From NCBI RefSeq assembly GCF_041260155.1, contig NC_091935.1:5943501-6007500 (forward strand): a stretch of 64,000 nucleotides of DNA. The letters are read 5' to 3'. The notes beneath the pieces were generated by a model. The model was given only the letters and a program-made list of their open reading frames with translations, made no database searches and was not told the DNA's origin. Both the position numbers and the translations under genes were made by a program. Source of the DNA: Ptychodera flava. Taxonomy: Eukaryota > Hemichordata > Enteropneusta > Ptychoderidae. Positions 10,301-48,800 of this stretch are shown here, in pieces (position 1 is the stretch's first letter; each line of letters opens with the position of its first letter).

Positions 10301-13300
10301 TGGGTTGTTAGGTTGTGAATCCGACTGTATGATATGACCTTTAGGTGGCTTGGTCTCCCATAACAAGACAGACCTGTGATGTACAAATCAAGCAAAAAAC
10401 AACACAGTAAACATTAATGGTAAAAGTATAAATGTCCTTTTTTAAGAAGATTCAGGTGTCAATTCCACAACTGATCAACTTTTGTGATATTCTAATAGAT
10501 AGAGATGATCACTATTTCATAGGATTATATGAAAAACTACCTACCCATCCACAGCACTTGTCAAGATCTGCGTACAATTTACAGCTTTGTTCTCATAGAC
10601 AATACCAAAACGATTAATCTGTTGAAGAGATGAAAGATGTCAATACTTTACCTTTTAAAATAAATGTCCACCAGCACAAAGCAGAATTGATATACATTTT
10701 TTTCTAAATATTGTGACTTGGAATGAGAAAGAAACCTTTGATCTAATCACAAAATTAAAATTTTTTTCACCTGTATTAAATATTTTAGTTAATTATTTTG
10801 CTGTGCAAAAAGTTCCAAAATGGCTTACAGAGTGACAAGGTGAAACTGGTGTCACTCTTATAGACTGAAAGATCAGTGACTGTCGCTCAAGGGCGCTCTC
10901 TGTGTTCCCCAAAAGAGAGCGCCCTCAACGATGGATCTTCCAATTCACACTCATTCCTGCCACAATGAGAACCACTTGCAATGTTTTCCAGCAACCAGGG
11001 CATCTGTGTAACAAGACTTTCATCCAAAATATCAATCAGACCATTCCTTACCTCCATGTGGTCAGGCACCCACTGTAAATCTGTTATCGTTGTCTTGTGG
11101 CTGTGTTCTATCGCTGAAACTGCACAGTAACGTATGATGGGCGTCTCCTGGGAGTTCTCATCTTCAAAACCAGGCTGAAATAAACAAGGAGATGCTACAG
11201 TCAGCTCACAAACAGGATAACATCTGGAGTCAGATCATGTTAGTGGCATGTCAGAATCACACATACTCATATCTAATCCTACAAGATGCAGAAGATCAAA
11301 TTTCAAAATGTTAGTAAGAAAGTTGCTGGCTGCAGATAACAAAATACCTTTACTCAGTCCATATAGTACGGTAACCAGTGACAAGGACTGGGTTGTACTT
11401 TGAAAAACGAAAAAAGACTGGTTTTGGTATCAGGCTATAGTTAATGTAAACTCAATACAAATTTGAATGAGATCACAGCAATCCTAAAAGTGGTTAGAAG
11501 TTTGAAAAGTATTTTAATAATATACTGGCAAAAATGCATATCTGTTATGGAATGTGATAATTTTAAAGACAAAACATTCACAATTCGAGAATTCTAATCG
11601 ACATATTTCTAAGCATGCTACCAATATTTTGAAAGTGATACTAAAATTTTTGAAATCTATCTTGCTCCAATGTTTACTTACTCTTGATGTGTTAATAGAC
11701 AAGACAGAGCTTTGAAGATTTCATGATTATTGGCAAAACAATTTTTGTTCATAAATTTTAGATTCAAATCATGTGAACCACAACATTGCAAGCACATCAC
11801 TACAGCTATATAAATAGAAATAGACTCCTTTGAACCCATTAAATTCAAAATTCCAATGAAGAGCAGACGAACTGCATGCTATGTGAACCAGATCCAAGTT
11901 GTTTAATACTCAACATGGGCTAATGGTAATGTGTGTTTGAATATGAGTGGGAACATGGAAAGTGGAGGAATGTATGTGATGTTTTTGTTTGCATTGCAAA
12001 ATATTAACAGGACTAATGACCATGATATGAATGCCCATATGAAACGCTGCCATGATCAGTGACTGCTTTCCTTACAAGGCATTGAGCATCTTTTGATTTG
12101 ATCGCACAGAAATGTCCTGTGATCTGATATTTTGATACAAACTTTAAATGTTCAAGAAATACAAAACCTAGGTAATACACTGCAACAATATTGAGAATAG
12201 AATGGTATGGTGAAGCACAGCAAACCCAGCACACATCATGTTACCTTGTTGTCATTTGTCGGCTTTGATGGGAAAAAGTGATTGTTGTAAAATGACAATT
12301 AATGATTGTGATGTGAATGATAAATGAGACATGATTGTGATAGGATGACAGCATTACATTACATGGCACTGTCTTTTGTGATGTGCTATTGAGAAATTGC
12401 TAAAAAGCATTTTCCAGAAAGAAAATTACTAAGCAAAGAGAAAGGCAAACTACTGCAATCATCAGATTTTGAAATATTAGTCATCAACTATGACATTAAG
12501 ATTTGTAATTCTGAATTTTACTGAGATTACCAGGTAATCTATACAGTTAATGAAGTTTAAAAATTATGTTCTTGCGACAGATGTAGGTTTGTTTCCCATG
12601 GTATTGTCCTTTAAGGCTGACTTTGAAAAACACCTTTCACTGTATGGCTGAACTTACCAAACTCATCATAGTGTTTTTCTTTGTTTGTTTTCCTCTAGGG
12701 TTGTTTTTCAGTCTGTCTGCCCACCTGGTGATATCCCAGAGGACCACCTGGCCATTGATGCAGCCGCCTGCTATGATGTTCGGATCAACTGGGTTGAAAC
12801 GGAAACAAAAGATGTCGTCTGGAGCTTCCAGCAGCAACTGTTGTAGTGGAAGATGGGGAAAAAAACAAGGAAAGGTATGTGATGAAAAATTGGTTTCATA
12901 CACTAAAATCTCAGAAATCTAAATATTGTTGAAAGTATCATTGAGAAAAGTTTGAGTAAAAGTTTAAGTCTTTCACTTTCAAGGCACATTGTTGACAATT
13001 GGGTAGTTGAGAACATCAAGCTCATTTTAACAGTCATGATATAGAAATGTTGAAAGTCACAACTTTGTGCTGAACAATATTTGGAACAAGTCATTGACAA
13101 TGACATAGTCCCCACTTGTAAAAGGAGTATTAGTCTTGATGGGGCAGGGAAATGTGGTCATTAAGAAGTATCACTGGAGTGTATAAGTTCATATCTATGG
13201 GCACATAGGTTTATGTCGTTTTTCCCAATTTATAACAAGAGGCATGTCTAAGTTATGGTTCTAAATCGGAAAAAAGATCAGACCTCTAGCTGTGTTGGCC

Positions 13301-16300
13301 AGCCAAGAAATACATATGTGCATAACAAATGAGGTACGACATGTGAAATTTAAGGTCTAATATCCTATCAAAATTGAAGCGTACAGAACTTGTGGTTACT
13401 GAGTTATGCATATATATGTATAATCAAGGTCTAAGGTCATCAAGGTCACGTGACGTTGATAAAAAATTGTATTGCTAAGTTATCCCTATATACCAAAAAT
13501 CAGACCTCTAGCTCTATTAGCTCGCTCAAATTAGATATGTGCATAATTAATGAGGTACAATATGTGGCATCATAAGGTGTCCCATCATACCATATATATG
13601 AAAGGTTTGGCACTTGTGGTTACTGAGTTGTGGACAAATATGTATATTTGAGGTCAAAGGTCACCAAGGTCACATGACATTTTGTCAAAAAAATGTATTG
13701 CTAAGTTATCCCTATATACCAAAAATCAGACCCCTCTAGCTCTATTGGTTTGCTCAAATTAGATATGCACATAATTAATGAGGTACAATATGTGGCGTCA
13801 TAAAGTGTCCCATCATACCATACATGAAGGGTGTAGCACTTGTGGTTACTGAGTTATGGACAAATATGTATATTTGAGGTCAAAGGTCACCGAGGTCACG
13901 TGACATTTTGTCAAAAAAATTGTATTGCTAAGTTATCCCTATATACCAAAAATCAGACCTCTAGCTCGATTGGCTTGCTCAAAATTAGATATGCACATAA
14001 TTAATGAGGTACAATATGTGGCGTCATAAGCTGTCCCATCATACCATATATGAAGGGTGTAGCACTTGTGGTTACTGAGTTATGGACAAATATATATATT
14101 TGAGGTCAAAGGTCACCAAGGTCACGTGACATTTTGTCAAAATATCTGAGATATCTGCGTGAACGGATGGACTCACGGATGGACTCACGGACAGACATGA
14201 CCCAATCTATAAGCCCCCTGGACTTCATCCGTGGGGACTAAAAACTGTGTCACTGCATCCTTTTTGCAATATGAATACGATGAGAAACTAAATTTTTATT
14301 TTTCTTGGCCTTATACATGGGAGTCTATGGACTGCCTTATACATGGGAGTCTATGGACTGCCTTATACATGGGAGTCTATGGACACTGCCTTATACATGG
14401 GAGTCTATGGAGGTGAAAACTAAAAAGTCCTCTAACATGGCCAAATTTGATTGCATTGTGAAACAAATCGACGTGCATCTGTATGGGGTAGGGTACTATC
14501 CTTGTGCAAAGTTTGAAAGAAATTGACCTGGGCATGTCTGAGATATCTGCGTGAACGGACGGACGCACGGACGGACGCACGCACGCACACACGGACGGAC
14601 ATGACCAAACCTATAAGTCCCCCCGGACGGTGTCCGTGGGGACTAATAACTGACACGTTTGAGAAGTAAAACATCCATCAGCAATATTCTTTCACAATTT
14701 TTCCAGCTCAAAGGTCCTCTTAAATTTGGAAATATGTTTGAAATAGAATGCACTTGTTCAGGGTTTGCAGGTTGGTAAAAGTTACTCATGTTTCTAACTC
14801 ATTTCAATCTCAGCTGCCGAACAAAAAGTGAAACTATAGAAACTGTACGATACTCCAACAAGTTTTAAATTAATGTACTGAAAAGTACCATATTGAAGCG
14901 TTGAGTAACATTAGCAGCTAATCTGAAAATTTTATGAGTTCATTACTACCACATCATCATTGCAGCAGCCCTGTCTAAGTAGTACCGGTAGTGTCAAAAG
15001 ACCACTGAACTCTTTCTCACCTGTGGATGGATAGGGTCTGTAAAACTCCACACCAATATCAGAGATGGCGTCATCAAAACTTTGGAGGCATTTTCAGTTC
15101 TTTCATCAAAAGACAGTCTCTCAGCACACGATACGGCAATGATTCCCTTGATAGCTGGGTGCCAATCAACTGATGTAATCGTCTTCTCTTTACTGAATTG
15201 TAAGTCGGTAAATGACTGATATTCCTGTGAGTGGAGAGAAATTATCAAGTTTTGAGAATGTCAGAGTATATCACTTGATAGGAATTATTAGACTTTCAGG
15301 CTGTCGTTTAGTGTAAGCTTGAACTTGTTTATCTACAGGTCTGGCAATGACAATTCAGAATCTTAGTGCAGATACTAATGTAGCAGTGTGGTAAACAATG
15401 AACCAAATTTCAGGACTACCAATGTTCTTTTGAAGTCAACTTGGTGGATTTGCATTTCCACTTGTCTGGTGAATCAGTAGATAGCATTGTAGTGCATCTG
15501 TATTAGAAAGAAACAGAATTGTACTGCATCTGTGGGAGAAAGAAACAAACTGAGTACACAACCTAGCAAGTAAGACCATACAACTAGCATGTAGGATCAC
15601 CAGACTAGATTCCGGAACAACCATACAGGCATGAAGGATCACCAGACTGGGTTGCAGGAACACTGGAATTGCATTGACTACCAGATAAATACCACAATAG
15701 TATTCAGCACTGGATGCCATCTGATGCGATAATGATTGGTTAGCTTGGCAATGCAATGCAGAGTTAGAGAGTTTCATGTACCTTGAGATGGTTATCTGAC
15801 TTGCTGCCAAATGTACTGTCCTCTTCAGAGAGAGCCATCCAATCATCAAAGAACACATCCATGATTTCATTCTGTTGCAGAGCCAACTCAAATCTGGGAA
15901 AAATAAATAACATTCATTTGCAATGCTGTTTCAGTTTCTTCCATTTATCATGATTATGCATGATTAAAATATCCAATACGACAGGTATGTGTTATTGATT
16001 TGAAAAGATCTCAGTAAACATCTGTTTCCTCTTTAATCAGAAAGACATCCAGAGTGCCAAATCACAATCTACGTGCAGTTTGACTTACAGAGATAAGTCC
16101 TGTGATGCAGTTCTTGCATAATAGAATGTATTGTACCTGCTTTACAGACAGTTTCTGACTATTGAGTTTGCATATACGGCCTAGCATAGATAAGTTCGCA
16201 TGTAAAATCCAGTTCCATTGTAGCAGTAGGGCTGTCTATTGTGACAAACTAATTATGTAAATGGATTGTCACTGCATCCCAACTGAACTCAATCATTTGT

Positions 16301-19300
16301 AGTGTCAAATTGTAATGAGGTATGGCATCTAAAGTAACAGGGATATTATATCTACCTTGGAGCAACTTCTGTGATGAAGACCTCCACAGCTCTGGACGTT
16401 GACAACTTTTCTTTCTCTTCTTCATTGAATTCCCTTGGGACATATTGAGTGGCCGCATTTCTTGGATGTTTCCTGTTGTCAACAAGAAATTGACATTTTA
16501 TACGCTGACTTGACAAAAAGGGCATGCCACACTAATGTGGAATATTTATATTTATTTATTTATATTTATAACGTGAAAGGCATTTGCTCTGCAAATGATA
16601 TTGTTTGATTTTACAGTCTGTCAGGTTTTGAATTAATTTCGTTCTGTAGGCTGTTGAAAATCTTGACTTTTGTAACACAGCTTCCTGTTTTGTGGAAAAT
16701 AGTTTCTTGCAACAGACCTTTATGTGCCACAGAAATAACATCATTTTAATGAATGTAAAAATATTATAATCTTACCATTCTGTCTGAGAGCCACTTTCCA
16801 CCAATGTAGGAATAGCCTGCGTCCCAGTCTCTTTTTCCATCTTCTTGATGTTGAAACTCTTGTCTTCATACGAAGTACACTCGATGTAACCATCTTTGGC
16901 GTCACCGGCGTTGCGATCGCTTAAAGTAACCGGTGCACCAAATTCACGACGCACCCTACTAATGGTGAATTTCACCTACAGCAAAGAAGAACAAGATTAT
17001 GGTGATGTGTTAGTACAAGAGCTAAATGATTAAATGTCACTAGATTTTTTTTCCATTTTGAAAAAATTTCTCTGGTTGTAGAGCAGATTACAGTACTCGC
17101 TACAGGAGACAACATTATTTTGCACAGTTTCATGTTTTGCTTTTCTTTTAATGGTTTAAAAACACACTTTGAGGCAAATGTCCTTATCCAAGCATTAATA
17201 AAGCAATGCCAGTGAAATGTTGTTTGCTGACTTTTTGTGTTGTCATAGTTACCCTTTCTCGTTGCTCTTCAACTTTTTCTTCATCTACTTCGAATTGACT
17301 TCCTTGTGAAACCCACTCTTTGGGTTCCGGTGGAATGTATCTGTAGATGATCTCCTCTTCTGGTTCAGCTTCACCCTCCCCTTCCTCTTCAGGGGGCTGA
17401 ATATGAATGAACAGTTGAAGTCAAAGCATGCAGAGATATCAAGAAGACAAAATTTTCTCTCTCTTAAAAGCATCCTTCAAGGTAGTATGCACCTTAGGGA
17501 TAGATATTTAGACTCTCAAACTTTTACAATACTTTTTTGATCTATGGCTTGTTGGGGCTCATTTCAAAGCTCTTGAAGAAAGTAGTTTTTCACTCTCTCA
17601 ACTTTGTGAAAAACGAAAATTTTAGTTTTCTCCATAGAGTTAACACAGTGATGGCGGCCATTGCAAATTTCAAATATCGGTAAATTTACGGTAATTTACT
17701 TCTCTAGCACCAAAATTTTCACAGTGACCCAAATTTTTGACCTTGATTTGGTAAGAGAATGGAAAACTTGCTTAAGAGTTTATTAAGTATTTCAATTTTA
17801 GACGCATGTACTAGTACTAGTTTAATGATTTTGTAGTTTTCAATTTGTGGGAATGAAAACTGCATGATAGCAAGTATGGCAGGACTTTAAAAAACTGGGC
17901 CCACACTGAGTAATTTTACAAATTAACACAATCCTAGGGGGTCTAATGGTTTGAAAGCACTGTGGGAGGCCCCTTAGAAAATCTCATATTTATTATTAAA
18001 AAAATACTGTGCCCAGTGTCCTTCAGGTACACCCTGAGTACAATGCACATATTGTGATAAGATTATGGTGAATGCAAAGGTACACAGTTTGTAGTGCAGT
18101 GCACAGCCCTCAGCTGCTGAATTAATGCAAGTTTGTAATTCAACTGTAACCCACGGAGCTTTGATCATTTCTGATGTGGCTATTGACCTACAGCTCTGTA
18201 GGTGCACAAGCCAGATTGGTGTGACAGGCAAAAATTACATTTACTTGCAGCTATCTAAATCATGTTGAAGGTAACACTACAAGCAAGTAATCCAATATAC
18301 TACTTAATACATACATGTAGAATTCTCTCCTTGGCTTCTTCTGTGAGTGCCATGTAGAAATTCTGACCATACTTGAAGTCATAATCATAGATGACAAGGA
18401 TTTCATCAGCTGGGTAATCCTGAAAAGGAGACAAACATAATGTATCACTAATCTAAATCTGAAATTCATTCATTTTATGCCCTGGGATCCAAACATTGAA
18501 GAGAAGTTTACTTTTTCATGCACCAAAGAAAACAGCTGCGACAATATGCAAGAAAGAAATTATTTTAAATGAGATTAAACTGACTGTGTTAAAATGTTCT
18601 CCGTGTCAGATAACCTATAATCTCTGTCTTGATGATCCAAAGAATACAGAGAATGCATTCCTGGTGATAGAACAGTTCACTGGGGAAACTTAAACAACAG
18701 AAAGCTAGTAAATTTTCAAAGGACAATATAATTTCATTTGGGTAGAATGCACCTCAGGGACAGATATTTTGACTTTCAAATTTTTACAATTCTTTTCTGA
18801 TATACCTCTTGTGGGAGCTCATTTTAAAGCACTTGGAAAAAGAAAAATTTTCACTGTCTTAGTTTTTAGAAAACGAAAATTTTATTTTCCCCTATGGAGT
18901 TAACACAGGGATGGCAGCCATGTTGAATTGCAGATGACAGTAAATGTTAGGTAATTTGTTTCTCTAGTACCAAAATTCGCATGGTGACCCCTGATTTTCA
19001 TTCTTGATTTGGTAAAAAAATGGATGATAGTTTCATAAAGAAAAGTTCCAGCAAAAGTTTCACGTCTGTCACTTTCAAGGCGCAAACTACCTTAAATTTG
19101 AGCAATCACTCACCAAGACAGTCTGTTTGACAGGATGGAAATCTGAGATGGCAGCCCTCATTTTCATGTCTTGTATAATTTCCTCTTTAGGGATTAATTT
19201 ATGTGGCTCCTCCGTTGTCACATCTTCATCAACAGTTACATGAAACAGCTCTTGAGTCTTACTTGACAAGAAGAGTGGCACTATATCATCTGGAGGTGGG

Positions 19301-21911: not shown

Positions 21912-23290
21912 ATGTCGTTGTTCAGGTGGAAATCGCGGGAAAATCATTCGAAATCATCGAATGAAATAAGACAACTGAGGCAGGGGGTAGTGAACATCTC
22001 TGATGACCAGGCCCGGAATCCTTACACTGAAGTTCAAGTGTTGTCTGGCCACACGGATATTGTGCACCATCTAACAAAGATAGATCAAGACAGATGCGTT
22101 TCAGCTGGTGATGATAATACTGCTATAATTTGGGACATACAAACTGGCCAGAAATTAGCCGTTCTGTCATTGCACACCAGGCCCATCACCTGTTTGCTCG
22201 TTATAAGCAGTGACCTGGTACGAGAAGAGTATGCAATTGATAAGGTATTGCTGACGGCTTCATCTGATCGGGTCATCGAATATGGGATATCGACAGTGGC
22301 CAATGCCTGATAACAATTACAGAGCACAGTGGAACTGTCAGGTATTTGGTTACCATCGATGATCTTGGCGTATTTTGCACCGGAGGACAGGATCTGTGTG
22401 TGTTCAGTCACATGGGTCAACTGCTTCATAAAGTTGCGAGGAAAGATGAACAGGCCGATATCCATCGACTTTTGTCCATTAAAAGCAACAGAATAGTGGT
22501 GGCATCAGGGAAGTCTCTTCAAGTTTATAAATTAAACGTGTCAGACCAGGGCGAGGTCACGCACATCGAGTGCTTGAAAACTCTTAAAGGTCATCGGGAG
22601 GCCATTCGAAGCCTGATCAAAATATCAGACAGATCCTTTGCTAGTGGATCTATCGATGGCAGCATCATGGTTTGGACGAGTCATGCATTGAACCCATCGA
22701 GGGAGTTCAACTTCAAAGCCAGATACGAGGGTGATTCACATGGCTACCCATTTAGTGTACAGGACATGGTAACAATTGAGGAGAGGTATATACTGGCTGC
22801 TATTGGATCTGGCTTCTGCCTGTATGATGTCATCAAGGAAACCTGCCTCATTGAGAAGCTTGGCGCTCACTACTCCAAGATTCACCGCATAGATTTGATG
22901 TATGGTGGATTGTTCATAGGCACTTGCTCCGAGGATGGGACCATCCGGTTATGGGGTTGTCCAACCATTTCATGTCTACCCAGTAACTGTGGAACAGCAC
23001 AAACAGCAGACGACGACCAGAGTGTGCTTGTCAAGATCATGGGGAAGCATGCCCCTGGGCAACAAGATGGTAAGGCCAAGAGATTCTCCAGCCCTCCGGT
23101 GTTCGAGCCGACACTCCTTGGAGAATGCCGAGGGCATTCTGGTAGTGTGTGTTGTTTCCAGGACTATGGCAGTGATGGTTTTGTAAGCTGTGGTATGGAC
23201 AATCTGCTCATACTGTGGAAAGATGGCGTTGTGCAGGCTGCAAAAAGAAATGACATTGTGCGGAAACTGCTAAATTGGAATGTGCTTTAG
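21912..23290 (+). CDS. WDR41: WD repeat protein 41, intronless, one frame break
   Basis: WD40 subunit of the C9orf72-SMCR8-WDR41 complex, which is recruited to lysosomes. The start MSLFRWKSREN is followed by NPYTEVQVLSGHTDIVHHL, SAGDDNTAIIWDIQTG, then SSDRVI, and after a frame change WDIDSGQCLITITEHSGTV, TGGQDLCVF, GTCSEDGTIRLWG and GMDNLLILWKDG, ending at a stop at 23288-23290. These match human WDR41 along its length. Frame 1 is coherent from 21912 to about 22277 and frame 2 from about 22283, so the change (net +2 or -1) lies in 22278-22282. The total is about 457 residues against 459 in human. The gene has a single exon, whereas the human gene has many introns. Either the break is an assembly or allele error in an active gene, or this is a young dead retrocopy. 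I lean to the former because the rest is intact. Confidence 0.85.
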
Positions 23291-26763: not shown

Positions 26764-26940
26764 AACAGCAACTTACCTAACATGTATAAATCTATAGTGA
26801 AAGCAATAATAGCTTTGCATGATTAACCCACTATTCTCAGCCTTTACACACAAAATAGTGACAATGTACTTTCTTGTTTTGATAACTACTCTGGCACAAT
26901 ACCCTACGGAACTTTGTTGATGTATCGGTGTATGTATTCA

Positions 26941-27914
26941 GGCAGAATGCATTGTGGGACAGATATTTTGACCCACAGTCTTATTCTTTTCTTGTCCACC
27001 TCTGGTGAGGACTATGTTTAATACTCATTGGATAAGAAAAAATTTCAGTCTCTGTGTTTCAAACATAGCATCAATGACACATGGCTCACATTTGGTTCAA
27101 TGTGGCGGGCCAGAGTGAGTATACTTAACATACTTAACTAAGTTTACCCCTGGGAACATGCAAACCAAGTTTCAAAGCAATACAAAATTTCACCACAATT
27201 TTTACAAATCAGACAGAGGTCAACCCTAGGATCAAGAATATCAAGTATCAAAGCAATCAAAGATAAAATTTTTGGAGAAAATGATTTGACCAAAAATGGG
27301 AAAAATTGCTCCAAAAATACAACTATGAAAATTTCACCACAATTTGAACAAATCTGACAGAGGCGAACTCTGGGATCATACATACATCGCTGTTTCAGAG
27401 ATTTTTTGACCAAAAACCGTGAAAATTGCCCCAAAAATACCACCATGAAAATTTCACCATAATCTGAATAAATCTGACTAAAGTCGCCTTCACAAACCTG
27501 CATACCAAATTTCAACCAAATCCGGCCCTTGGTTATACAGGCTTTGGCAATTTGCAGGGTTTTCCCATTTTTACCGCATTTGCATATTTTTGACACTGTG
27601 CATATTTTTTGACACTATGAGGAGTTCATTTGAACAAATTCACATCTCCACCCCTGGCAGCAACTGTGCGATATTACGATAGCAGGTGCTGCGGTTTTGG
27701 AGTTTTTGATGTGGATGGACATACACCCACACACACTCTCATACATATTAACATACATACATACATTGAGACGCCGCTGACTTACCATATAAGCCCCCTT
27801 TGGTATTAAATACATATACCAAATGTGAGCCAAAATGAACCCCCAAAAGTGGTAGGACAAAAGAATATTATAAAAGTTTGAGTCCAAATATCTGTCTCTG
27901 AGACACATTCTGCC
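26941..27914 (-). mobile_element. Composite inverted-ended repeat with internal units
   Basis: Starts GGCAGAATGCATTGTGGGAC and ends in the near inverse, CAGATATTTTGAC mirrored by GTCCAAATATCTG. Inside are 2-3 diverged units of ~130 bp with TGAAAATTTCACCA and TTTTTGACCAAAAA, then a CATACA-rich stretch. The interior is related to 36303-36830. The 150-codon minus-strand frame at 27144-27596 is the repeat read through and not a gene. Confidence 0.7.
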
Positions 27915-29317: not shown

Positions 29318-32300
29318 TTATGACATCATTTTCATTTCGCTGTCCACTGTACTACTGTTACTGTCCATATTGATGTCAGTCATTGCTTTTTCAGCACAGG
29401 GTGTACCCTGTTGAAGTGAGGGGATTTGTGAGGGGTCAAGGGGAGGCATGGACGCCATGTACGGTAACTGTGAGCTCTCCGGAGGTTTATTTTCATCCTC
29501 TGGATTGTTATCCCAATCTATTTTAAATCTCGTCACCCGAGGACTTGTAGCCAATATATTCCTTGTCATCTGAAATACAAACAAGAAGATAGGCTTATGA
29601 ATTCCACTGAAATTCCTCTTACTAACCCCTTGAAATGATAATCAGTGATAAGATACTTGCAGCCAACCGACATGAATTTAATGATAAGGCAAATACATTC
29701 CCTAATCACAAATCTAGATAATATACTTTATTGCTGGCGCAAATAAACTTGGAACACCGAAGTCCCTATATACTTAGGAAAACCGCTGGCGATATCCCTA
29801 TATCGCCAAGTGATTAGCCAAAGCCGTATCGCTAGTGAGTTAGATCATCTTACAGTTTGTTTATCGAAATCACTGCGGGGTGCCCATACTGTGTCTCATA
29901 GACAAAACACCATAGCAGAGGCCGTTCAAATTGCGTGAACGATGGTACAAGAAAGGATTGACGTTTTGAGTAAAGTTACTTGGGTAAATTTCGATGAGCA
30001 GGGAACCTGTTGAAGCAACCGTTTTGACAGACTTTCCCTCAAAATGAAGAAAGAGTGCAGGTGAGAAACGGTAGGTGTTGTCATGGAGTTCGCTATCGTT
30101 TGGCTTCGTTTCGTTGTGCAGGCGTGTCATCATAAATGCCGTCATTTCCACTATCTCACAAAAATTGTAAATTACGCCTGGCATCGTGGTTAAATCTTTG
30201 CTGCGAATCCGTAGCCTCTACCACTCAGGAGTGGCAGGGCTCGATTTCGCAGCAAGTTAAATCTGTATTTTTAACTTTCATTTTTATAAAGTGATCAGCT
30301 TACGTTGAGGTTTACAATGTGCGTCTCTTTCTTATATGTTGTACATGAACCTTTATTCACGTTTTACACCCATCGAGCGATGTAATATCTCGAGCATGTA
30401 CTTCGACAATTTCCATTCAATGCGACAGTGTTTCCTTGAGTGAAATTCAAAGTCGCTAAATTTCTAATTTCGTTTCGAAGAAACCGGTTTGTCCATAGAC
30501 CCTCGTTTCTCGAGGATCTATGGTTGGTCGACCGGTGTAAAGTAGATGCACTAAGTGAGAATAGACGGTTGTGAAATACCAATGGTACCGGTACGTTACC
30601 GGTATGTTATCGGCCGTGCACCGATGCGAGTTGCTAGGTAAAACTTCCTGGCTCTGACGTTTTTTTATCCGACATGTCGTAGCGAAATTCTGGTGAGAAC
30701 TAATACTGGCAAGGTTTCGGTTTTCGGAGAATTTCAGTGTAACAGCTGATTATCAAGTTGAAATAAAGCGCGAGCGTGGATGGTCTGACTTGTTGCTGGC
30801 GCACGGCGTGGCGCATATGGCGTGGCGGGGAATCTATGTTACAAGCATCCAACTGTCGGCCATAACTCTACGGTCGCCATCGACGGCTTTCGTGATTTTG
30901 AAGAATAGAGTAAACCGTAGATAAAGCTAGACCTTTTCTCGGCTTTGTTTCTGAAAACCTCTCCTCAGAGGCAAAGGCGACGTAAACCGTGTCCGAGTCT
31001 CGGCCTTGACATGACACAAGAAAGTCATAGTTCAATCACATTTATTTGCGTGCGTCATACAGATGATATCATTATTCATAGGGGTATCCGCATGAAGTGG
31101 GTACATACTATTCTCAAGAAACGTACGATGAAAAAGGACAGGCTAAATAAAAAGGTTTCAATCATATCATCAATTGCAAAGAACGCTGAAATGCTGCAGA
31201 TTTTAATCGCTATGGCAAAGTTTGTTTTTTGACCTCAACGTTATCCGATCGAGAACGTAAACTTGGTTTGACCCAAAGTTTGAAAATGTGTTTTCTGATC
31301 TCCCGCGGCATGGCCCGCAGCCTAGCCAGTGACGTCGACGTTTCGTACTTCGAATTCTGAGAGCTACATCAAATCGCCACGATCAGCGGACAAGAAATTA
31401 CTATTTTCAAATCGCCATCACCAAAAAAATTACAGAGAAATGAGACAACACGGTGAGAAAAAAGGCACATCATCAATGATGTTGATAACCTACATTTTGC
31501 TTCAAAACGGGTACCTTTTCAAACCACCCAGATTCCCGATACCAACTCGCCCGAATTCAATTTGTTGGGCGAGCCAACGATATATTTTTCCTGCAAACGT
31601 AAACAGACTTGCACTGTGCACTGAAGGAATAGTTGGCGATATCTTTACCGAAACTGAAAAAAATAGCTAAAGAAGTAGCCATCTCTCAGGCAGTACACGG
31701 CCAAGGTAAACCTGAGCGTTCATATTCGACTATAATGGAGCATTTTCAACGAAAACGGCGATGTCCAGGCGATGACTTATTTTTAAAGTTGAAGAAAAAT
31801 GCTTAAAATTTTGGTTGTGTTAGTCAATCTATCGAAATATTTTGTTCTAACTGATAAAATCATAGACAGTCTCGATTATACCATCCATAATTAATATTTA
31901 CAGACTAAATCGACAGGGGGGGAACGCGGTACGAACGAACGTGTAAACTCAAACAACGGGCGAGTTGATTTCGGACCAATATGACTAAAATCAGATGTAG
32001 GTTCCCTGGTCATTGAAATTTACCAACGTAACTTTACTCAAAACGTCAATTCTTTATTGTACCATCGTTCACGCAAAATGAACGGCCTCTGCTAAGGCGT
32101 TTTGTCTATGAGACACAGCATGGGCACCCCGCAGTGTTTTCGATAAACAAAGTGTAAGATGATCTAACTCACTAGCGATACCGCTTTGGCTAATCACTTG
32201 GCGATATAGGGAAATCGCCAGCGGTTTCCCTAAGTATATAGGGACTTCGGTGTTCCAAGTTTATTTGCGCCAGCAATAAAACGTATTGATGTCAAATATT

Positions 32301-35300
32301 TCCACTTCACAGCAGATTCTTCATGCTAAGAAAACAGTTACATGTAAGTAAAAACTGTGTATATCGATGGACTTCCATTTGGTCTCAGACATATATTTGA
32401 TGTGAATAATTCAACAAAGATAATCCAGTGTTGACCTGAACACGAATTTCCAACAGTCAGACCTATAGTCACTGGCGGTTCATCTTTCTTGATCATATAG
32501 GTATGTAATACTACACTATGAGTCTTTGAATGTGAATGTGATATGAGTGCTTTTATGTTTGTGCTCACATGTATGTATACACATATGGCTGTACTTTATG
32601 TTATGGGGATGTACTTCTACATACATGTACTGGTAAAGTTTTATTTCAGGTTCTGTTGCAGTGTTGTATTGAAATACAGTCATCAGACTTCCTTGTCAGT
32701 GCTTTATGCTATTTTTGGGACAATAGATAAATGATTTTGGAATCTCTATAATCCTGGGACCCCTTACCATTTCTGTTATCCCCTAGTATAGTTGTATTGA
32801 TATATCCCTTTTCCTGCCAAGCGCCCTTGTCCGTTATCCTGCCAAGTCCGTAGAAAACGGCCCCCTTTTCCATGCCTGCAAAGATTGGCTCTCCTGCACG
32901 TTATCCTGCCAGGCATTTTGGCAGAAACCACCCATTTTCAGGGTAGTTTTAGCCCTACTTATACGTGTTAGACTCCGATAATTTCAACATGCCCGTAGAC
33001 AGGGGAAGGTGCTCAAGGGTTACTGTGGAAAAAAAATTGAGGTCACCGGCTTTGTTTGCCCCTGGGAGTGCGTCATTTTATTGCCGTTTCATGTTTTTTT
33101 TTCGGAAATAAACTCGTTCAGTATTACGCACGTCCGCTAGGCACAAACATCACCTCACTCGTCTGTTGTCAGAGACCCTAGGGGTCGTGCGAGGGTGCAG
33201 CAGCACCGGCAAACCTGTCCTTTTTCCTCCAGGGTAGGGTCAATTGAATACGTACCTTAAACGACTTGGCAGTGTAGCACAAAACTACGTTTTTGCCGTT
33301 GTTCTAACGACATAGCTGAGCCATTGAGGCACAGTTTCCACGTAGTTTCGCCAGCTCGTTTGGGAGTTGGCTTACGAGTGTTACCGTTCATAACCGACTT
33401 AATCAAGCGGTCCTCAGTCAGGTACGGGTTTGTACCGCCATGGCTTGGGCTGCAGCTAACCAGTGATAACCAGTCACTACACCCAAGTTGTCAGTCTCAC
33501 TTTTGCGATGCACGGGTACAACGCAATATGCTTCCATTGTTCTAGCCATCGACGTCTCCACATGCCTGGCAGCCATTGTGGCTAGCTGGTTTGCATAACA
33601 AAAGCAGTCCCTGCTCAGTACAGGCGGTATCCCCGTAGCATTGACCTCATGTCCCCTGAATTCTCGGTACGCAAATAGCGTACGTAGCAACCAAAGTCGT
33701 CGGCAACAGGATACGTTTGCCTGCAAACCAGAGCCAATACTTCGGACGATGGAATAAATAAAAATAGCGTCAATGACACTGTAGCTCCCATCCTGGACTA
33801 TTTAGTGTTTGTTCTCTGGTCAGATATTTGAACATGTGTGAAAGGGATAAAGTGCATGAAGTGAAAATACTTAAATGAAATGTACTGGAGACAGTGAAAT
33901 ATGTTTAATGTAATTATTCAGAATATAAAATGGAAAAAAGACAGAATTAGATATATCGAATACTGTGATACAACCATTAACTCAACAAGTCATTTACAAT
34001 GACATAGTCCCCACTTGTAATAGGAGTATTAGTCTTGATGGGGCAGGAAAATGTGGTCATTAAGAAGTATCACTGGAGTGTACATGTTGAGATCTATGGG
34101 CACATAGGTCTATGTTGTTGTTCCCAATTTGAAACACATGAGCATGTCTAAGTTATGGTTCTAAATCGGGAAAAAGACCAGACCTCTAGCAGTATTGGCC
34201 AGCCAAGAAATACATATGCGCATTATAAATGAGGTACAAGATGTGACATCTTAAGGTCTAATATCCTATCAAAATTGCAGGGTATAGAACTTGTGGTTAC
34301 TGAAATATGCATATATATGTATAATCAAGGTCAAGGTCATCGAGGTCACATGACATTTTGAAAAAAAATTATATTATAATAATAATAATAATAATATTGG
34401 GTTCTTATATAGCGCACATATCCACAAGTAGATGTGATCAAGGCGCTTTACAATTATTATTATTACCCCTGGTCACTGGACCTAATATGATACCACTCAA
34501 CTCCCTGGGGAGCAGACAACAGCTCACATGTGCAGCCAATAAGCGCAGCAGAGCTAAACGCACACATAACAACCTCTGTCCTACCAGGTACCCATCACTC
34601 CTGGGTGGGGAGAAGCAATGAGGAATAAAGTGCCTTGCCCAAGGACACAACACCACAGCCATGCCGGGGCTCGAACTCACCATCCTTTGATCGTGAGTCC
34701 ACTGCTCTAGCCACTGGCCCATGATGCCTCCTCCATATTGCTAATTAATCCCTATATGCCAAAAAATCTGATCTCTAGCTCTATTCGCTTGCCCAGAATT
34801 AGATGTGTACATAATTAATGAGGTAAAGCGTGTGTTGTCATAAGGTCTCCCATCCTACTAAATACAAAGGACATAGCACTTGTGGTTACTTATTTATTGA
34901 CATAAACATATATTTTAGGTAAAAGGTCATCGAGATCACATGACATTTGGTCAAAAATTTCTCTTCTATAGTTATCCCTATATACCCAAAATCAGACATC
35001 CAGCTCTATTGGCTCGCTCAGAATGAGATATGCGCATAATTATTGAGGTACAGTATGTGGCGTCATAAGGTGTCCAATCATACCAAACATGAAGGGTGTA
35101 GCACTTGTGGTTACCGAGTTATGGAAAAATATGTATATTTGAGGTCAAAGGTCACCGAGGTCACGTGACATTTTGTCAAAAAAATTGTTTTGCTAAGTTA
35201 TCCCTATATACCAAAAATCAGACCTCTAGCTCTATTGGCTCGCTCAAAATTAGATATGTGCATAATTAATGAGGTACAATATGTGGCGTCATAAGCTGTC

Positions 35301-38300
35301 CCATCATACCATACATGAGGGGAGTAGCACTTGTGGTTACTGAGTTATGGACAAATATGTATATTTGAGGTCAAAGGTCACCGAGGTCACGTGACATTTT
35401 GTCAAAAAAATTGTATTGTTAAGTTATCTCTATATACCAAAAATCAGACCTCTAGCTCTATTGGCTCGCTCAAAATTAGATATGTGCATAATTAATGAGG
35501 TACAATATGTGGCATCATAAGCTGTCCCATCATACCATACATGAAGGGAGTAGCACTTGTGGTTACTGAGTTATGGACAAATATGTATATTTGAGGTCAA
35601 AGGTCACCGAGGTCACATGACATTTTGCAAAATAATTGTTTTGCTAAGTTATCCCTATATACCAAAAATCAGACCTCTAGCTCTATTGGCTCGCTCAAAA
35701 TTAGATATGTGCATAAGTAATGAGGTACAATATGTGGCGTCATAAGGTGTCCCATCATACCATACATGAAGGCTGTAGCACTTGTAGTTACTGAGTTATG
35801 GACAAATATGTATATTTGAGGTCAAAGGTCACCGAGGTCACATGACATTTTGTCAAAAAATTGTTTTGCTAAGTTATTCCTATATACCAAAAATCAGACC
35901 TCTAGCTCTATTGGCTCGCTCAAAATTAGATATGTGCATAATTAATGAGGTACAATTTGTGGCGTCATAAGCTGTCCCATCATACCATATATGAAGGGTG
36001 GTAGCACTTGTGGTTACTGAGTTACGGACAAATATGTATATTTGAGATCAAAGGTCATCAAGGTCACATGACATTTTGTCAAAATATCCGAGATATCTGC
36101 GTGAACGGATGGACTCACGGATGGACGAACAGACGGACATGACCCAATCTATAAGCTCACTGGACTTCATCCGTGGGGACTAAAAATTGTGTCACTGCAT
36201 CCTTTTTGCAATATGAATACGATGAGAAATGAAATTTTTATTTTTTGTGGCCTTATACATGGGAGTCTATGGAGATCTGCCTTATACATGGGAGTCTATG
36301 GACGTGTAAACTAAAAATATGCAAATTTCACCCACGATTTACCCAAATTTGGGAAAGGTCACTCCTATGCACTTCCATACCAAGTTTCAAATCAATCGGA
36401 CTTGTGGTTTCAGAGCAGGAGATTTTTGACCAAAAATGGGAGAAAATTACAAAAAAATTCATGAAAAATAGCAAGTCCAAGATACTGACCCAAGATGCGC
36501 ACAATCATTTCATGTCAGCCCAAAGTACTTACATGCTAATTTTTCATGTAATCTGCTCAGTGGTTATTGAGTTTTTTCAATTTTGACTGTTTTTACATTT
36601 TTTCACTTAATTTGCATATTTTTGGCAATGACAACTTCATTTGAACAAAATCTCATCTACAGCCCATCATCCATGTACACACCAAATATCAAGATGAAAT
36701 GTACAGCGGTTTGTGAGTTTTTGATGTTGACGGACAGACATACAGACATACAGACGTACAGACATACAGACATTTTCCTAGCCTATAAGAATAGCTTCCA
36801 TTGCCATATATACATATGGCTATGGGAGCTAAAAAATCCAAAGTCACGTCCATTGAATGGCACGGCCAAGACGGTGAAGGACGTTGCCTGGCTTGAACTT
36901 GCAGAGCTGAAGCCTAGCTTAGTACGTCGGACACCAGTTTGTAATGGTATTTCCGAGTCGTTCATATCCGTTCCATCGGAGGAACAATTGAGCCGTCCCG
37001 TCAAAAAAACGTTCTCATTTTCAGTCACGCACAACTGAATAAGTGACTTTCGTCTCGCACCATCGGCACCATCTGCCAAGTCGTTTGCAAGAGGTAGCCT
37101 TCTAGATTAGCATTGCCGAGTTGGTCAAGTTCGGCAGCAAGCTCTATAGTGCCAGGCAGCCAAGTATGTCCAACTCCGCCAGAAAACATCACCATGCTAT
37201 CCTGCCAAGTCCGCTAAAAAGCGGTAAAAAAAACAACAGCCCCCTTGGTGTGGGGGACTGGCGGACAGGTTTCTGCACCTTTCCCTGTCTATCGACTCCC
37301 TGCCAACCCATTTGGAGGGGAAAGGCGTTCCTTGTCAGAGAACCTGTCCTCGGATGACCCCTAAACGCACAGGGGATAGCAAAACGTAGTGCCGTCGACT
37401 TGGCAGGAAAGGGGTACCCAAAAAGGGCCCGATTTCCACCGAGTTGGTAGAATAACGGTCACCAGTGCTTAGATTCTGGCTACACCGAATTTCAAGCGGA
37501 TTTTCACCGGCTTGGCAGAAAAGGGATATACACTTCGCAAAAGTACTGTTTTCGTAGCTTTTGCCTTTCAGTGAAAAATAAAACATGGGTGTTATAAAAT
37601 TTAAACATGAAGTGTGTTATGAAGACAAGCTTCCCAAAGCAAATAATACAAAATCTTTGTACCTTGTCAAACTGAGGTACAGTTGACGGGTTTTCTCGGA
37701 GTTCCGGATCTGTATATTCATTGTTGACATAATAACCGACCCTCACAAACTCATTGTTTCTGTATGAGCAGGTCAGCAAGACAACTGTAACTCCAACTGC
37801 GTCTGCTAAAGGAATTTTGGATGTGTCCGGCGGATCAGCCTGAAAGATATTGTGACATAAACAGCACATTATTATTATATAACTCAAAATGAGAAACCCT
37901 AGTTCATTGTTGCACTACATATCTTGATAAGGTAATACCAAAAAACAGCAGTACATCATCTAAGCTGTGTTTTAGGCCTTTGAATGCCAAGGTCAATTTT
38001 TATTGCCTTTATAAAATATAATGCAGACAATTTTTTTCAGATTTTCCCCTGAATTTTGATCTAAAGCTGTTGGTAAAAATTATCAAAAAAAATTACAGAA
38101 AAAATTGTAAAACTTAGAAAGCCTTGGCGAAAAATATTTACACTGAAAAGTATGGGTTGTATGATAGCTAAAGTACCATGAGACCAAAGAAAGTAAATTC
38201 CTTGTTATGCGTCCACTCAACATTCAAAAAGGTTGGTGAGTAAGTGGCTAAAAACATGAAAAATCAATACAAAATCACCTTCCCCAGTAATTATCTACAT

Positions 38301-42416: not shown

Positions 42417-42859
42417 ATGGCAACTTATAAGTTAAGTTGTACACTTACAGGACATGAACTTGACGTCAGAGCTGTACAAGCGACCTTTTCGCCAGAGGGA
42501 GCGATCGTGTCTGGTTCCAGAGACAAGACAGCAAGGATATGGGTACCGGACAGGTAAATCATGCTAACTCATGTTACAACGTCGTCAACAGCCGGTCAGC
42601 CGGTCATTCATTGTGATCTGATTGCGAGTGTGTTGGTTTTGAAGCATAGCTCGTTACATGCCATTCGGAGTTTCTAAAGTATGGCCAGTCTTAGCATTTA
42701 TGTATAAATTTTTGCATAAATTCAAAATTTGACACAATATACAACAGCGCAAATTTGCGATTTAATAAGTACGGTACACAGACTGTGACAGAGTCCATGA
42801 TAATTGACATAGTTTACGGATATGTGTTGATTACAAATGAATCTTGTTCATAATGAAGG

Positions 42860-42895
<36 letters not shown>

Positions 42896-45800
42896 AATTG
42901 CCGTCTGTGTAAATCATTCATCTTCGAAGTAGAACTATATTACTGCGTTACCCAGTGCATGAACAAAATATTTAAAAAAAGATTAAAATAACATTTCACT
43001 GGCTTAGTTTATCCACATTATCACCTACACTTTCTTAAAGATGAATTGCTAAGTGGTTTACATACTGTCAGGGCTCCCTCTCAGTCACCAAAATGATTAG
43101 CCAACTGATTAGCCAATCAAAATCTTGTAGCCACTTTGAGCAACTTTTAGCCAGGCTATGATCTCAATTAAGCGTGGCAATTACAGCTTTCTCCGCATTC
43201 AGGAGTTCCTAATTTTACAAATCGAGATCTTTTGTATGATGTTCCTGATAGCTTTTACATTAAAGAAACATTTGTTCAGTTTGTACTGAATAATCTGTGT
43301 TTTTATGACATTTCCAGGATAGAAATACTTTTTCATTTCAGATGGTAAACTTTTACCACCAGAAATAAAATAAGGTATCAATTGAATTCTAAAAATCTGG
43401 TAGCAAAGTGAAGTGTATATTACAACAGGTACAGAACATTTCTGCGGCATTCATTTAGTGTTCACAGTATGATAGCTTGTTATAAGCTACAAGCCTCTCA
43501 TGCGGCAAATTTATGCAGTCTTCCATAACCAAAATGTTTTAGCCACAAGAATAAAAAAAATGGTGCAGGAGAAAGCATTTAGTAGCACACTGGCAGTGTA
43601 GATACAATTGGCCCCGGTGTTACTTGTATGTCACAGTTGTGATCAGGCAGGCTAAATAGCATTTTGAGTATGAGTATTTTTCTTGAGATCAAAGGTTTTG
43701 GCCAAACACAACTCTTGTAAAACAAGACACAATGATATATGTTCATTTAAATTACTCACTGTTTGAGAGTATACATTGTTTTAATGATTATGATAATATT
43801 TTAACACAGATATATTTTCACTTGATATTTTGATATCATAAAGAAATGTCTGGTAATGTTTACTTCTACATCATTAAACTGGTCGAATCTGCAAAAATAT
43901 TAAAATAATTCAGAATCACATAATTTCTTGTATAAGTTATAGCAGTTTGAAATAGACCGAATTAACAATTTTAATGAATTGTTATAATTGCTTTAATGTT
44001 TACATGCAAAATTGCAATTCACAAATGTGATGATTTGACAATGGATATGCTTACTGCAATTACTGTTTACAATATCCCTTTGCAATGACTCTTAATAAAT
44101 TTAATTTAAAACTGACAGTCAAGCTGAATGCCATTTAAATTGGAAGACACCAAAAATACCTTTTACCTATTGACCCACCCTAGGTGGCTCTTTTGAACCA
44201 TAATTGTACACTTAAGGGGTCTTCATGCATGACATCACATGATGAGATGACCTAGACTTGACCTTTCAGAAAACCTCAGTTTTTCTCCTCTTCCTTTGTA
44301 TTATTGCTCCGTTTGTGAAATTTCCCTTTTAAATTACGGTATTTACTATCAAACTGAGTAGTTGCCGGCCAAATTTTGATTCTAGCAAAGTAGGTAAAAC
44401 TTCTAGATAGACTGAAGGACGAACGGGACTCACGGAGGCAAAACAAAGCCTCTGTACCACAGACGGAACAGCAACAATGTCTGCTCCATGTACCAGGGAA
44501 CTTGTAATTTTGTAGAAAGGAGAGTAAACTGTTTCAATACATTGCAACTTTGTAGGAAGGAGAGTAAACTGTTTCAACATCTTACAACTTTTTATTGTTA
44601 GCTGTAGTTTTTTGTTGAGGTGGCACCTGGGCAGGAAAAATTCATTAGCCACTATGTTCGCCAAACTGGAATTTTTGTAGCCATTTTAAACTTTCTTTCG
44701 CATTTGGCTAATTGGCGATCGGGTAGCGGGAGCCCTGACTGTAAGTTTATTCTGCACATAAAGTACAAAAGGTATCATTATTATTGTATTTTATTTTAGA
44801 ATAAAATGTGCTGATGAACTATGACTGTGCATATCATCAGATAGCTTACATCCTTTTTGTTGTTGAATAATCTGAACCACATTGTTGAATAATCTGAACC
44901 ACATTCCGATTTTCTTTTGAGTTCTAAGTAAAGTACCAAATAAACGAAAGTAGGTGCAAAATAAATAGAAATAAGTAAAAGAAGTTGGTACCAGTCTTAT
45001 GTTACTCATGAATTTGTTTTTGAAATAGAAAAAATGTTATTGTTCTCAAGATAGCCTGTTTTGTAATTGTATTGCAGCAATGGCAGAGGCTATTCCCAAG
45101 CCATGATACTGACAGGACATACAAACTTCATCTCCTGTATCTGTGTTATGCCTCCTACTGATGAGTATCCACAGGGACTCATTATGACTGGAAGCAATGA
45201 TCACAATATTAATGCATACACACCAGACTCTCCATTCCCAGTGTACACTCTCACAGGACATGAGAACACAGGTGAGTTTTAGATCCTAAGATTCTTTGAA
45301 GAGTGGTGGCTAATTCGCATAAATTTAAATACAACATTTGCATATCATTGCTTTGTTTGGTGTATATAATTACTGTGAAAGAAGATGATGTTTGCTCTGC
45401 CATGCAAAGAAAAAGAAAACATTTAATGTGGTCAGGCAAATGTAGATCTCTGTAGCTTTCATACGTAAATATTACATAGCATTTGCGCTCCATAATAGCT
45501 CATGTATGTAAAATTTATGATGTGCTTTCAATAGTCCAGAGAAGCTCCCACTGTCATGGTTAAGAAAATAAATTATGCTACTTGGAGATGATTTAAACAC
45601 AAAAATTCTTTTATCTTTCAGTTTGTACCTTGGCTTCTGGTAAATTTGGTACTCTCCTCAGTGGTTCGTGGGACTGCACTGCTAAAGTTTGGTTGAAGGA
45701 GAAAAACGTCATGACCTTACGAGGTCATTCACTGGCTGTATGGGCTGTAGCTATTTTGCCAGCACAGGGACTGATGCTCACAGGGTCTGCAGATAAAGAC

Positions 45801-48800
45801 ATCAAGATGTGGAGAACTGGAAAGTGTGAACGGACATTTAAAGGTAAATAGGTGTTTCTGTGGAGTTTGTGTGTTCTCCAACATGTCGGAAGGTTAGACG
45901 TAAAATTATTAGTGATTCTTTGTGATCAAGAAAGCATCACAACTACAGGAATTATAATTAATATGTCATTCATTTTTTTAAAACAGTGTTCAAATAAGAT
46001 AAGGAGTATAGTCCAGGCAATGGTTTTTACTGCCATTTTACATGAAAAGTTCCATACAACTGCATACAAAATTTTTCTTATTTCATTAGAGCAACTTTAT
46101 ACTATAATGAAACACAGGCCATTACCAGTCTGTAAAACCATACTGAACTTCAATAAAGCCACTGATTGAGAACGAGGATCTATCACGGTAACCTTCACAA
46201 CGAGTACTGTATCTACATATGGTATAATATAATGATAATAATAATAATAACAAGGCAGTATTGCTGAAGGCAATGAGTACTTGGGCCGTGATAGAGTAAT
46301 TTTGAGGACAATATATACCACTATTCAAATATGGTCTTGAATTTCCTCCTGTCAATGAGGCATTTGATTAACTGGTTATTAAACGAAGCAATGGCATGAC
46401 AACGGCAAAATATGTCTAGCAACTTTTGTGGAGTTTGAGGCAGGGGTTCTTTATTTATAACGGGAATTGCTTAAACTCCTTAAATATTCAAATTACAGCA
46501 AATTTCTTTTGTTCTCGATGGTAGATGTCTAATATTTAGATGGGCATATTTAGATTTCTACCCTATAGTTATCCCTATATACCAAAAATCGGACATCCAG
46601 CTCTATTGGCTTGCTCAGAATTAGATATGTGCATAATTAATGAGGTACAATATGTGGTGTCATAAGGTGTCACGGTCCCATCATACCATTTATGAAGGGT
46701 GTAGCACTTGTGGTTACTGAGTTGTGGACAAATATATATATTTGAGGTCAAAGGTCATCGAGGTCACGTGACATTTTGTCAAAATAATTGTATTGCTAAG
46801 TTATTCCTATATACCAAAAATCAGACCTCCAGCTCTATTGGCGCGCTCAAAATTATATATGCGCATAATTAATGAGGTACAATATGTGGTGTCATAAGGT
46901 GTCTTATCATACCAAATATGAAGGATGTAGCACTTGTGGTTACTGAGTTTGTGGACAAATATATATATATATTTGAGGTCAAAGGTCATTGAGGTCACGT
47001 CACATTTTGTCATAATAATTGTATTGCTCAGTTATTCCTATATACCAAAAATCAGACCTCTAGCTCTATTGGCTCGCTCAAAATAAGATATGCACATAAT
47101 TAATGAGGTACAATATATGGTGTCATAAGGTGTCCTTTCATACCAAATATGAAGGGTGTAGCACTTGTGGTTACTGAGTTGTGGACAAATATGTATATTT
47201 GAGGTCAAAGGTCATTGAGGTCACGTGAAGTTTTGTCAAACAAATTATATTGTTAACTTATCCCTATATACCAGAAATCAGACCTCTTGCTCTATTGGCT
47301 CGCTCACAATTAGATATGCACATAATTAATGGAGTACAATATGTGGCATCATAAGGTGTCCCATCATACCAAATATGAAAGGTTTAGCACTTGTGGTTAC
47401 TGAGTCATGGACAATAATGTATATTTGAGGTCAAAGGTCACCAAGGTCACATGATATTTTGTCAAGATGTCTGAGATATCTGCGTGAACCGATGGACTCA
47501 CTGATGCACTCACTGACGGATATGAGCCAATCTATAAGCCCCCTGGACTTTATCCGTGGGGACAAAAAAACTGTGTCACTGCATCCTTTAGGCAATATGA
47601 ATACGATGAGAAACTACATTTTTATTTTTCTTGGCATCATACATGCGAGTCTATGGAGAACTGCCTTATACATGGGAGTCTATGGAGGTGTAAACTAAAA
47701 AGTCCTCTAACACGGCCAAATTTGATAGCATTGTGAAACAAATCGACGTGCATCTGTATGGGGTTGGGTACTAGGCGTGAACGGACGGACGGACGCACGG
47801 ACATGACCAAACCTATAAGGCCCCTCGGACTTCGTCCGTGGTGATTAAAAACAACGCAACAGTTATTACAGCTACACCGGCGGTAGGTTCATATCCAGAG
47901 CCCCGTACGGTCTGCCGCCGTCTCTTGAAAACAATCTCATGCACCCGGCCATATGGGCAGCTGGCCGGATCACAGTCGCTCGAGAGCTATTCAGCTCTGG
48001 GACTATTCGCCCCATAGACGAGTATACAGAAGCGAGGTATTTCTCGCTTCTGTATACTCGTCTATGGGGCGAATAGTCCCAGAGCTGAATAGCTCTCGAG
48101 CGACTGTGGCCGGATGCATGACTTCCCGGAGAAGGCGAGCTGTCACGTTCAAAGCTCAGGATTATTTGTCGATCAAATTTCAGTAAATTTACCTTACCTA
48201 GATGAAATTTTGTCTATAGGCTGAAATTTCGCCGAAGTTTGACAAAATTACATCGATTTTTCAGGTTCATATGCGACATTTTTGAGTTTTGAGTGCAGAC
48301 AGAAATAAGTTTTGAGGCAACATGGCTGCGACCCCATGTTGACACCTAGCCCTGCATACGATGCTATGTGCTACAGCTAACACACAGCATCGTACGCAGG
48401 GCCAGCGAGAGAGTTGCCGACATCGACGGTTATTTACGAGAAGTGAATAAAAGACTGTCATTTTTGGAAGCGATCGAGTAGCTGAGGTAGGCTGGGATAC
48501 GACTTGGGCCCAAGAACGCTGAATTTCGGCAGTAATTTGGCTTTTACGTCAAGTCCCAAAATGGATTTGAAGTCACCGACCCAACGTACGGGTCTTTGCA
48601 GGGCTGTGGTCAGCGGGGCGGTTAGCTGTAGCGGAACACACAGCATCGTACGCAGGGCTAGTTGACCCCCAAGTGAAAATGTGTTCGCGATCAAATCTCC
48701 TATATTTTTTTCAGAATTTTCAACAAAATCATTGCTTCTTACATCTTTTGTAAAATATAAAATACTAAAATAAAACTGCGATGTGCCATGTCTCCAGATT

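Follow-up and report, generated by a model that had tools for sequence, protein, structure and literature searches.

The 64,000-nucleotide stretch analysed here (hereafter the window) comes from the hemichordate Ptychodera flava (NCBI RefSeq assembly GCF_041260155.1, contig NC_091935.1, positions 5,943,501 to 6,007,500 of the forward strand) and holds three related composite elements, A, B and C, each lying in an intron and built around an array of 226-bp units in which three AGGTCA half-sites lead straight into a CACGTG E-box. Element A sits between exons of DNAI3, whose best PDB matches are WD repeat domain 63 / dynein axonemal intermediate chain 3, element B between exons of ASF1, and element C between two WD40-coding exons that precede the PFU and PUL domains, a combination that identifies the surrounding gene as PLAA. 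These flanking exon matches support the three intron locations proposed in an initial annotation of the stretch. The minus strand of the elements runs in the same direction as DNAI3 and ASF1 and opposite to PLAA. The reading that we favour, and consider likely, is that all three elements are copies of a single non-autonomous HINE (Helentron-associated interspersed element), whose multi-unit array was spread by rolling-circle transposition and whose motifs are mostly passengers.

Tandem Repeats Finder delimited three arrays with a 226-bp period (13388-14142, 34738-36084 and 46567-47465), which amount to 15 units once the divergent edge units are included (A0-A3, B0-B6 and C0-C3; Table 1). A profile search of the window with the unit yielded no copies beyond the three elements at E <0.01, together with four weaker matches (E 0.21-4.4). 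Read on the minus strand, the parts of the elements follow one another in the same order: a T-rich 5' end, the sequence TAGTCCCCACGGA (weathered in C), a partner arm able to form a hairpin with it, a GTCC-type microsatellite, which stands out best in the outer ends of elements A and C, and then the array. Elements A and B close with the 3' subterminal inverted repeat (subTIR) GTGGGGACTA and the palindrome GTCATTGTCAATGAC, which has one mismatch in B, and their 3' ends read TT; element C is without a 3' end on its left side. The 10-bp subTIR TAGTCCCCAC is exact at both ends of A and B and weathered at the 5' ends of C, and it has a hairpin partner, which folds strongly in the outer end of A; the outer end of B, which belongs to a second family (see below), also forms a strong hairpin. 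Microsatellite and central tandem repeats occupy the fixed HINE order.

The resemblance between the three elements extends beyond their arrays, with a right-hand non-array tail common to A, B and C and a left flank common to A and B. Each element carries an inner 5' end beside the array and a second, outer 5' end, and the sequence between the two is shared, so that the composite would have arisen before the copies spread. Within this interval lies the 26-bp phrase GCCTTATACATGGGAGTCTATGGACT, present four times in A, twice in B (36248-36317) and twice in C (47632-47701). The outer 5' end of B belongs to a second, unrelated HINE-like family, a sequence (36318-36831) with its own microsatellite and hairpin. 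Another insertion within B (34376-34735) separates B0 from B1, and its minus strand resembles, by eye, a tRNA-like head of a short interspersed element followed by an (AAT)n tail; ARAGORN found no tRNA, in this insertion included, and Rfam gave no match in the window at gathering thresholds.

Elements A, B and C are non-coding: none of the 13 element-overlapping open reading frames of at least 75 amino acids has a curated Pfam match, two sub-threshold matches both falling in the reading frame at 36233-36586. Rep/Helicase would come from an autonomous Helentron located elsewhere in the genome, with subTIRs and hairpins as its recognition sites, and rolling-circle copying would carry the multi-unit array whole into T-rich intron sites, a scenario that we infer from the anatomy, the shared flanks and the partly shared order of units. 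The initial annotation correctly had the array spread by a mobile element and missed its HINE/Helentron-type anatomy, which accounts for the dispersal. Two features of the termini weigh against this assignment. The subTIR, at 10 bp, is shorter than the reported 11-15 bp, and among the eight stretches folded against shuffles only the outer 5' ends of A and B stand out (z -4.27 and -3.82), the other four of the six 5' ends and both 3' palindromes folding no better than shuffles (z -1.73 to -0.37).

The closest counterparts are Cg_HINE of Crassostrea gigas and the Pearl elements of bivalves, with which the comparison was made on published descriptions rather than on sequences. By kind, the elements are HINE-like and hold central repeats, as is the case in oyster and Drosophila. 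These are composed of a 5' subTIR, a complementary inverted repeat, a microsatellite, satellite-like monomers, a 3' subTIR and a palindrome (PMC7492417). Our elements share with them the order of the parts, the GTCY/GTCC types of microsatellite, a short array (mostly ≤5 monomers in theirs), the location of some copies in gene introns and the occurrence of some copies with joined modules; they differ in the monomer (226 bp here, mostly 140-180 bp there), in the subTIR (10 bp against 11-12 bp) and in having two successive 5' ends (PMC7492417). DINE-1 and other HINEs have subTIRs, an inverted repeat near the 5' subTIR, a stem-loop on the 3' side, insertion sites rich in T, no protein-coding potential and, optionally, microsatellite and tandem repeats; their subTIRs measure 12-15 bp and autonomous partners have been demonstrated (PMC4067079). 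The elements described here match them in the inverted repeat, the lack of coding capacity and the repeats, and would probably match them in the subTIRs, the 3' stem-loop and the T-rich insertion sites. Altogether, the elements probably represent a new HINE family with the motifs as passengers, and one probably not yet named within the literature searched. No publication with both "Helentron" and "nuclear receptor" was found within one literature library, and the motif strings appear in none of the literature matches listed, which says nothing of the remaining matches. Exact-pattern scans of prokaryotic (two patterns) and viral (three patterns) collections returned 0 matches, a result uninformative about other animals.

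The kinship of the units also cuts across the elements. The unit tree joins A0 with B0 (support 100), B2 with C0 (91) and A3 with B6 and C3 (77), along with a C1/C2 group (82), most other nodes being weak. Among the 12 core units (A0, B0 and B1 left out), pairs from the same element are 90.6% identical (19 pairs) and pairs from different elements 90.0% (47 pairs; permutation p 0.18). Since the units are about as similar between elements as within them, the sameness of their motifs would mostly reflect common descent from an element that was already multi-unit. Recent homogenisation, put forward in the initial annotation as another cause of the retained motifs, finds no support as something that acted locally after insertion, the slight excess of similarity inside elements not being significant.

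The motifs themselves are concentrated in these arrays. The direct repeat of two half-sites with a one-base spacer (DR1, AGGTCAAAGGTCA) occurs in 11 perfect copies, starting at 13651, 13877, 14103, 35142, 35368, 35594, 35819, 46745, 46976, 47202 and 47428, and in three copies with one mismatch (13427, 34917 and 36045). Compared with these 14 copies, 100 dinucleotide shuffles gave 0.10 on average, and chance is ruled out for the set. Outside the elements, AGGTCA was counted 36 times in 58,285 bases (23.9 expected), and neither DR1 nor the three-base-spaced DR3 was found among these bases. The DR3, AGGTCANNNAGGTCA, is formed by half-sites 2 and 3 and is present in 14 of the 15 units. The exact E-box palindrome GTCACGTGAC starts at six positions in the window (13445, 13895, 14121, 35160, 35386 and 46763). 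All 11 perfect DR1 starts had been placed to the base in the initial annotation, as had the variant at 36045, the other two one-mismatch copies having been overlooked; five of its six E-box positions were right and one, given as 13446, lies at 13445. It had also described the third half-site, leaving unnamed the DR3 that this forms with the second. Its statement that nearly every unit has a perfect DR1 applies to 11 of 15 units, and B0 carries in its place, at 34325, AGGTCAAGGTCA, a DR0. DR1 fits receptors of the RXR/HNF4/COUP type, DR3 fits VDR-like NR1 receptors and CACGTG fits factors of the TFEB/MITF/USF type. The DR1 copies are descendants of one ancestral unit and not independent matches; DR1, DR3 and E-box alike go back to a single ancestral block, which can still be made out because core copies differ by only ~10%.

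Whether this block resists decay was assessed on conservation counts for which 10 consensus columns were trimmed from either end of the unit alignment (ragged edges), along with columns where gaps predominate among the 12 core units. In the core units, the 28-bp block accumulated 0.68 changes per column, against 0.57 elsewhere, and 132 of 180 windows were as low, contrary to the proposal that variation is greater outside the block; 50 of 180 windows were as low when the comparison was made with B1 alone, and 23 of 180 under parsimony over all 15 units. The DR1 remains intact in 11 of the 15 units, being broken in A0, B0, B1 and B6, which are edge or divergent units. This figure is equalled or bettered at 18 of 195 placements, including ACTTGTGGTTACT, intact in 13 units, which likewise contradicts greater variation outside the block; within the core units, the number of intact 13-mers is no lower than that of DR1 at 11 of 195 placements. 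The CACGTG is intact in seven of the 15 units, a score at least equalled by 172 of 202 six-base placements, and its eight losses comprise seven CACATG (CG>CA) and one CACGTC. CpG survival at the E-box (7 of 12 core units) resembles that at the three other major CpG sites (9, 6 and 6 of 12), and its loss, as read from these counts, follows the ordinary CpG decay of the unit. Maintenance of the array by selection on the exact E-box was consequently rejected, and a regulatory function of the exact E-box looks unlikely. Of the block suggested to be retained across units, half-sites 2 and 3 form the best-kept pattern, a suggestive but post hoc result; the exact E-box is not retained, and the DR1 is lost in four units. 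On this evidence the motifs are likely passengers, most likely at best weakly kept by selection on the element, rather than a regulatory array of the host.

Several results nevertheless speak against a purely passive role. When CpG columns are dropped, a single change is seen among the 156 DR1 cells of the core units and 82 among the 2088 other cells, and the mask of half-site and E-box columns ranks 3 of 180 in these units. The divergent units A0 and B0 agree with the core consensus at 23 of the 25 columns in this mask and at 124 of the 182 outside it (Fisher p 0.017; 22 of 23 against 113 of 164 without CpG columns, p 0.0055), which makes it the best of 180 placements. Fixed differences between A0/B0 and the core units fall on 0 of 25 mask columns and on 26 of 182 others (p 0.05; p 0.08 without CpG columns). 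Finally, the DR3, intact in all units but one, is the best of 193 placements, a post hoc rank as its mask was picked after the alignment was seen. Neighbouring placements overlap, leaving ~13-16 independent ones by our estimate. Decay of the block at the pace of the rest of the unit in old copies, named at the outset as the outcome that would speak against a receptor-site array, is not clearly what is seen: in comparison with A0/B0 the half-site and E-box columns are the best kept, and in comparison with B1 the block is not special. Because the A0/B0 and DR3 results involve about two deep lineages, treat columns as independent and use a mask chosen post hoc, they are suggestive only, hinting at a constraint on the half-sites; half-sites 2-3 may have a role, in the element or in the host.

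The alternative that best accommodates these hints is a mobile receptor-site array, in which DR3/DR1 and E-box would be bound by host factors, altering nearby genes or aiding expression of the element. It would explain the deep sharing of the block with A0/B0, the near-universal DR3 and the scarcity of non-CpG change in the core half-sites. We nonetheless regard it as unlikely, as ordinary CpG decay has removed the exact E-box from eight of the 15 units and the DR1 is gone from four, as ACTTGTGGTTACT, for which no receptor reading is offered, is kept equally or better, and as the block is unremarkable both against B1 and in the core units overall. The three copies are, moreover, all intronic, with differing orientation to the genes. 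The Drosophila element ISX is Helitron-derived. Precedents for such an array are found in the Helitron-borne heat-shock elements of Caenorhabditis, bound by HSF-1 (PMC6927752), in ISX (PMC4384637) and in the DR2 and HNF4 sites of Alu (PMC1785376, PMC3252374). Like the Caenorhabditis Helitrons, the present family would be a rolling-circle transposon with a transcription-factor site in many copies; theirs are HSF-1 sites with demonstrated binding and induction (PMC6927752), ours putative receptor sites. Alu and ISX similarly offer transposon-borne binding sites, those of Alu being nuclear-receptor sites whose DR2 motifs were shaped by CpG deamination; in contrast to our case, binding was demonstrated there, Alu being a SINE and ISX a dosage-compensation element (PMC1785376, PMC3252374, PMC4384637). 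The decay of CpG also acts differently here than in Alu, as it destroys the E-box and creates no receptor site. A more specific version, a HINE whose composite of DR3, DR1 and E-box would be bound by host nuclear receptors (at DR3 above all) and by basic helix-loop-helix leucine zipper factors, appears improbable; if it were true, transposition would have seeded multi-copy receptor arrays in introns, wiring genes into a hormone- or lipid-sensing programme.

Selection acting on the element itself, for HINE replication or expression and not for host regulation, could also keep the block, and we grant it similarly little credence. Two separate phrases, the half-site block and ACTTGTGGTTACT, are the best kept, and the monomers of otherwise different oyster HINEs have conserved segments in common (PMC7492417). 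A phrase resembling ACTTGTGGTT of the 226-bp unit recurs, with 2 mismatches in 16, at 36400 in the second HINE-like sequence; this lone match has little weight (E 0.25 with the unit profile), the termini are regarded as the seat of HINE recognition (PMC4067079), and only about two deep lineages are available. A transposon-free origin, in which unequal exchange or conversion homogenised plain satellite DNA separately at each site, is highly improbable, as the C1/C2 group and the greater divergence of edge units A0, B0 and B1, expected of arrays homogenised from the middle, are set against a tail common to all three arrays, a left flank common to A and B, and a within-element identity not significantly above that between elements.

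That HINEs carry satellite-like arrays is already known, as is the spread of sites for transcription factors by rolling-circle transposons in worms. A family in which most units hold perfect receptor repeats would lend itself well to finding out if arrays of this kind become bound, are silenced or are simply ignored, as each copy provides several near-identical sites together with natural CpG-decay variants. For now the case is mainly a warning that one ancestral sequence can yield many perfect motifs.

Table 1. Features of elements A, B and C, in coordinates of the window.
Feature	Position	Strand	Basis
Element A, HINE-like, 5' end at right	13085..14646	-	Left boundary: similarity to B begins 13085/33984; terminal repeats
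A 3' palindrome GTCATTGTCAATGAC	13090..13104	-	Sequence; fold z -0.83, no better than shuffles
A 3' subTIR GTGGGGACTA (minus-strand reading)	13106..13115	-	Sequence
A0-A3, four 226-bp units	13245..14147	+	Motif blocks 13427, 13651, 13877, 14103
A inner 5' subTIR TAGTCCCCAC	14231..14240	-	Sequence, folding
A, four copies of 26-bp phrase between inner and outer 5' ends	14308..14411	+	Tandem repeat and similarity search
A GTCC-type microsatellite (ACGG on +)	14555..14600	-	Tandem Repeats Finder
A outer 5' subTIR TAGTCCCCAC and hairpin	14616..14645	-	Fold z -4.27
Element B, HINE-like, second HINE-like 5' end joined at right	33984..36831	-	Shared flanks, terminal repeats
B 3' subTIR GTGGGGACTA, then one-mismatch palindrome	33989..34014	-	Fold z -0.87 (folded stretch one palindrome base short)
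B0, divergent unit, AGGTCAAGGTCA replacing DR1	34143..34369	+	Unit profile, unit alignment/tree
B1-B6, main array of B	34738..36086	+	Motif blocks 34917, 35142, 35368, 35594, 35819, 36045
B inner 5' subTIR TAGTCCCCAC	36173..36182	-	Hairpin weathered, z -0.37
B outer 5' end, second HINE-like family, hairpin after T-rich sequence	36793..36831	-	Fold z -3.82; microsatellite 36734-36773
Element C, HINE-like, 3' end (left) missing	46554..47847	-	Shared flanks/tails
C0-C3, units of C	46567..47472	+	Motif blocks 46745, 46976, 47202, 47428
C inner 5' subTIR, weathered TTGTCCCCAC	47556..47565	-	Sequence
C outer 5' subTIR, weathered TAATCACCAC	47838..47847	-	Sequence

The window holds further features apart from these elements. 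A reading frame of 340 amino acids at 22268-23290, on the strand opposite to neighbouring DNAI3, matches WDR41 (Pfam PF25178, E 8.1e-39), and an element of ~2.5 kb (29720-32287) lies between 289-bp inverted repeats that are 93% complementary. Two long near-perfect palindromes occur at 715-903 (86-bp arms, 99%, 17-base gap) and at 47971-48108 (66-bp arms, 100%, 6-base gap). Finally, a degenerate tandem repeat of ~120 bp at 27144-27614 bears some likeness to 36323-36373.

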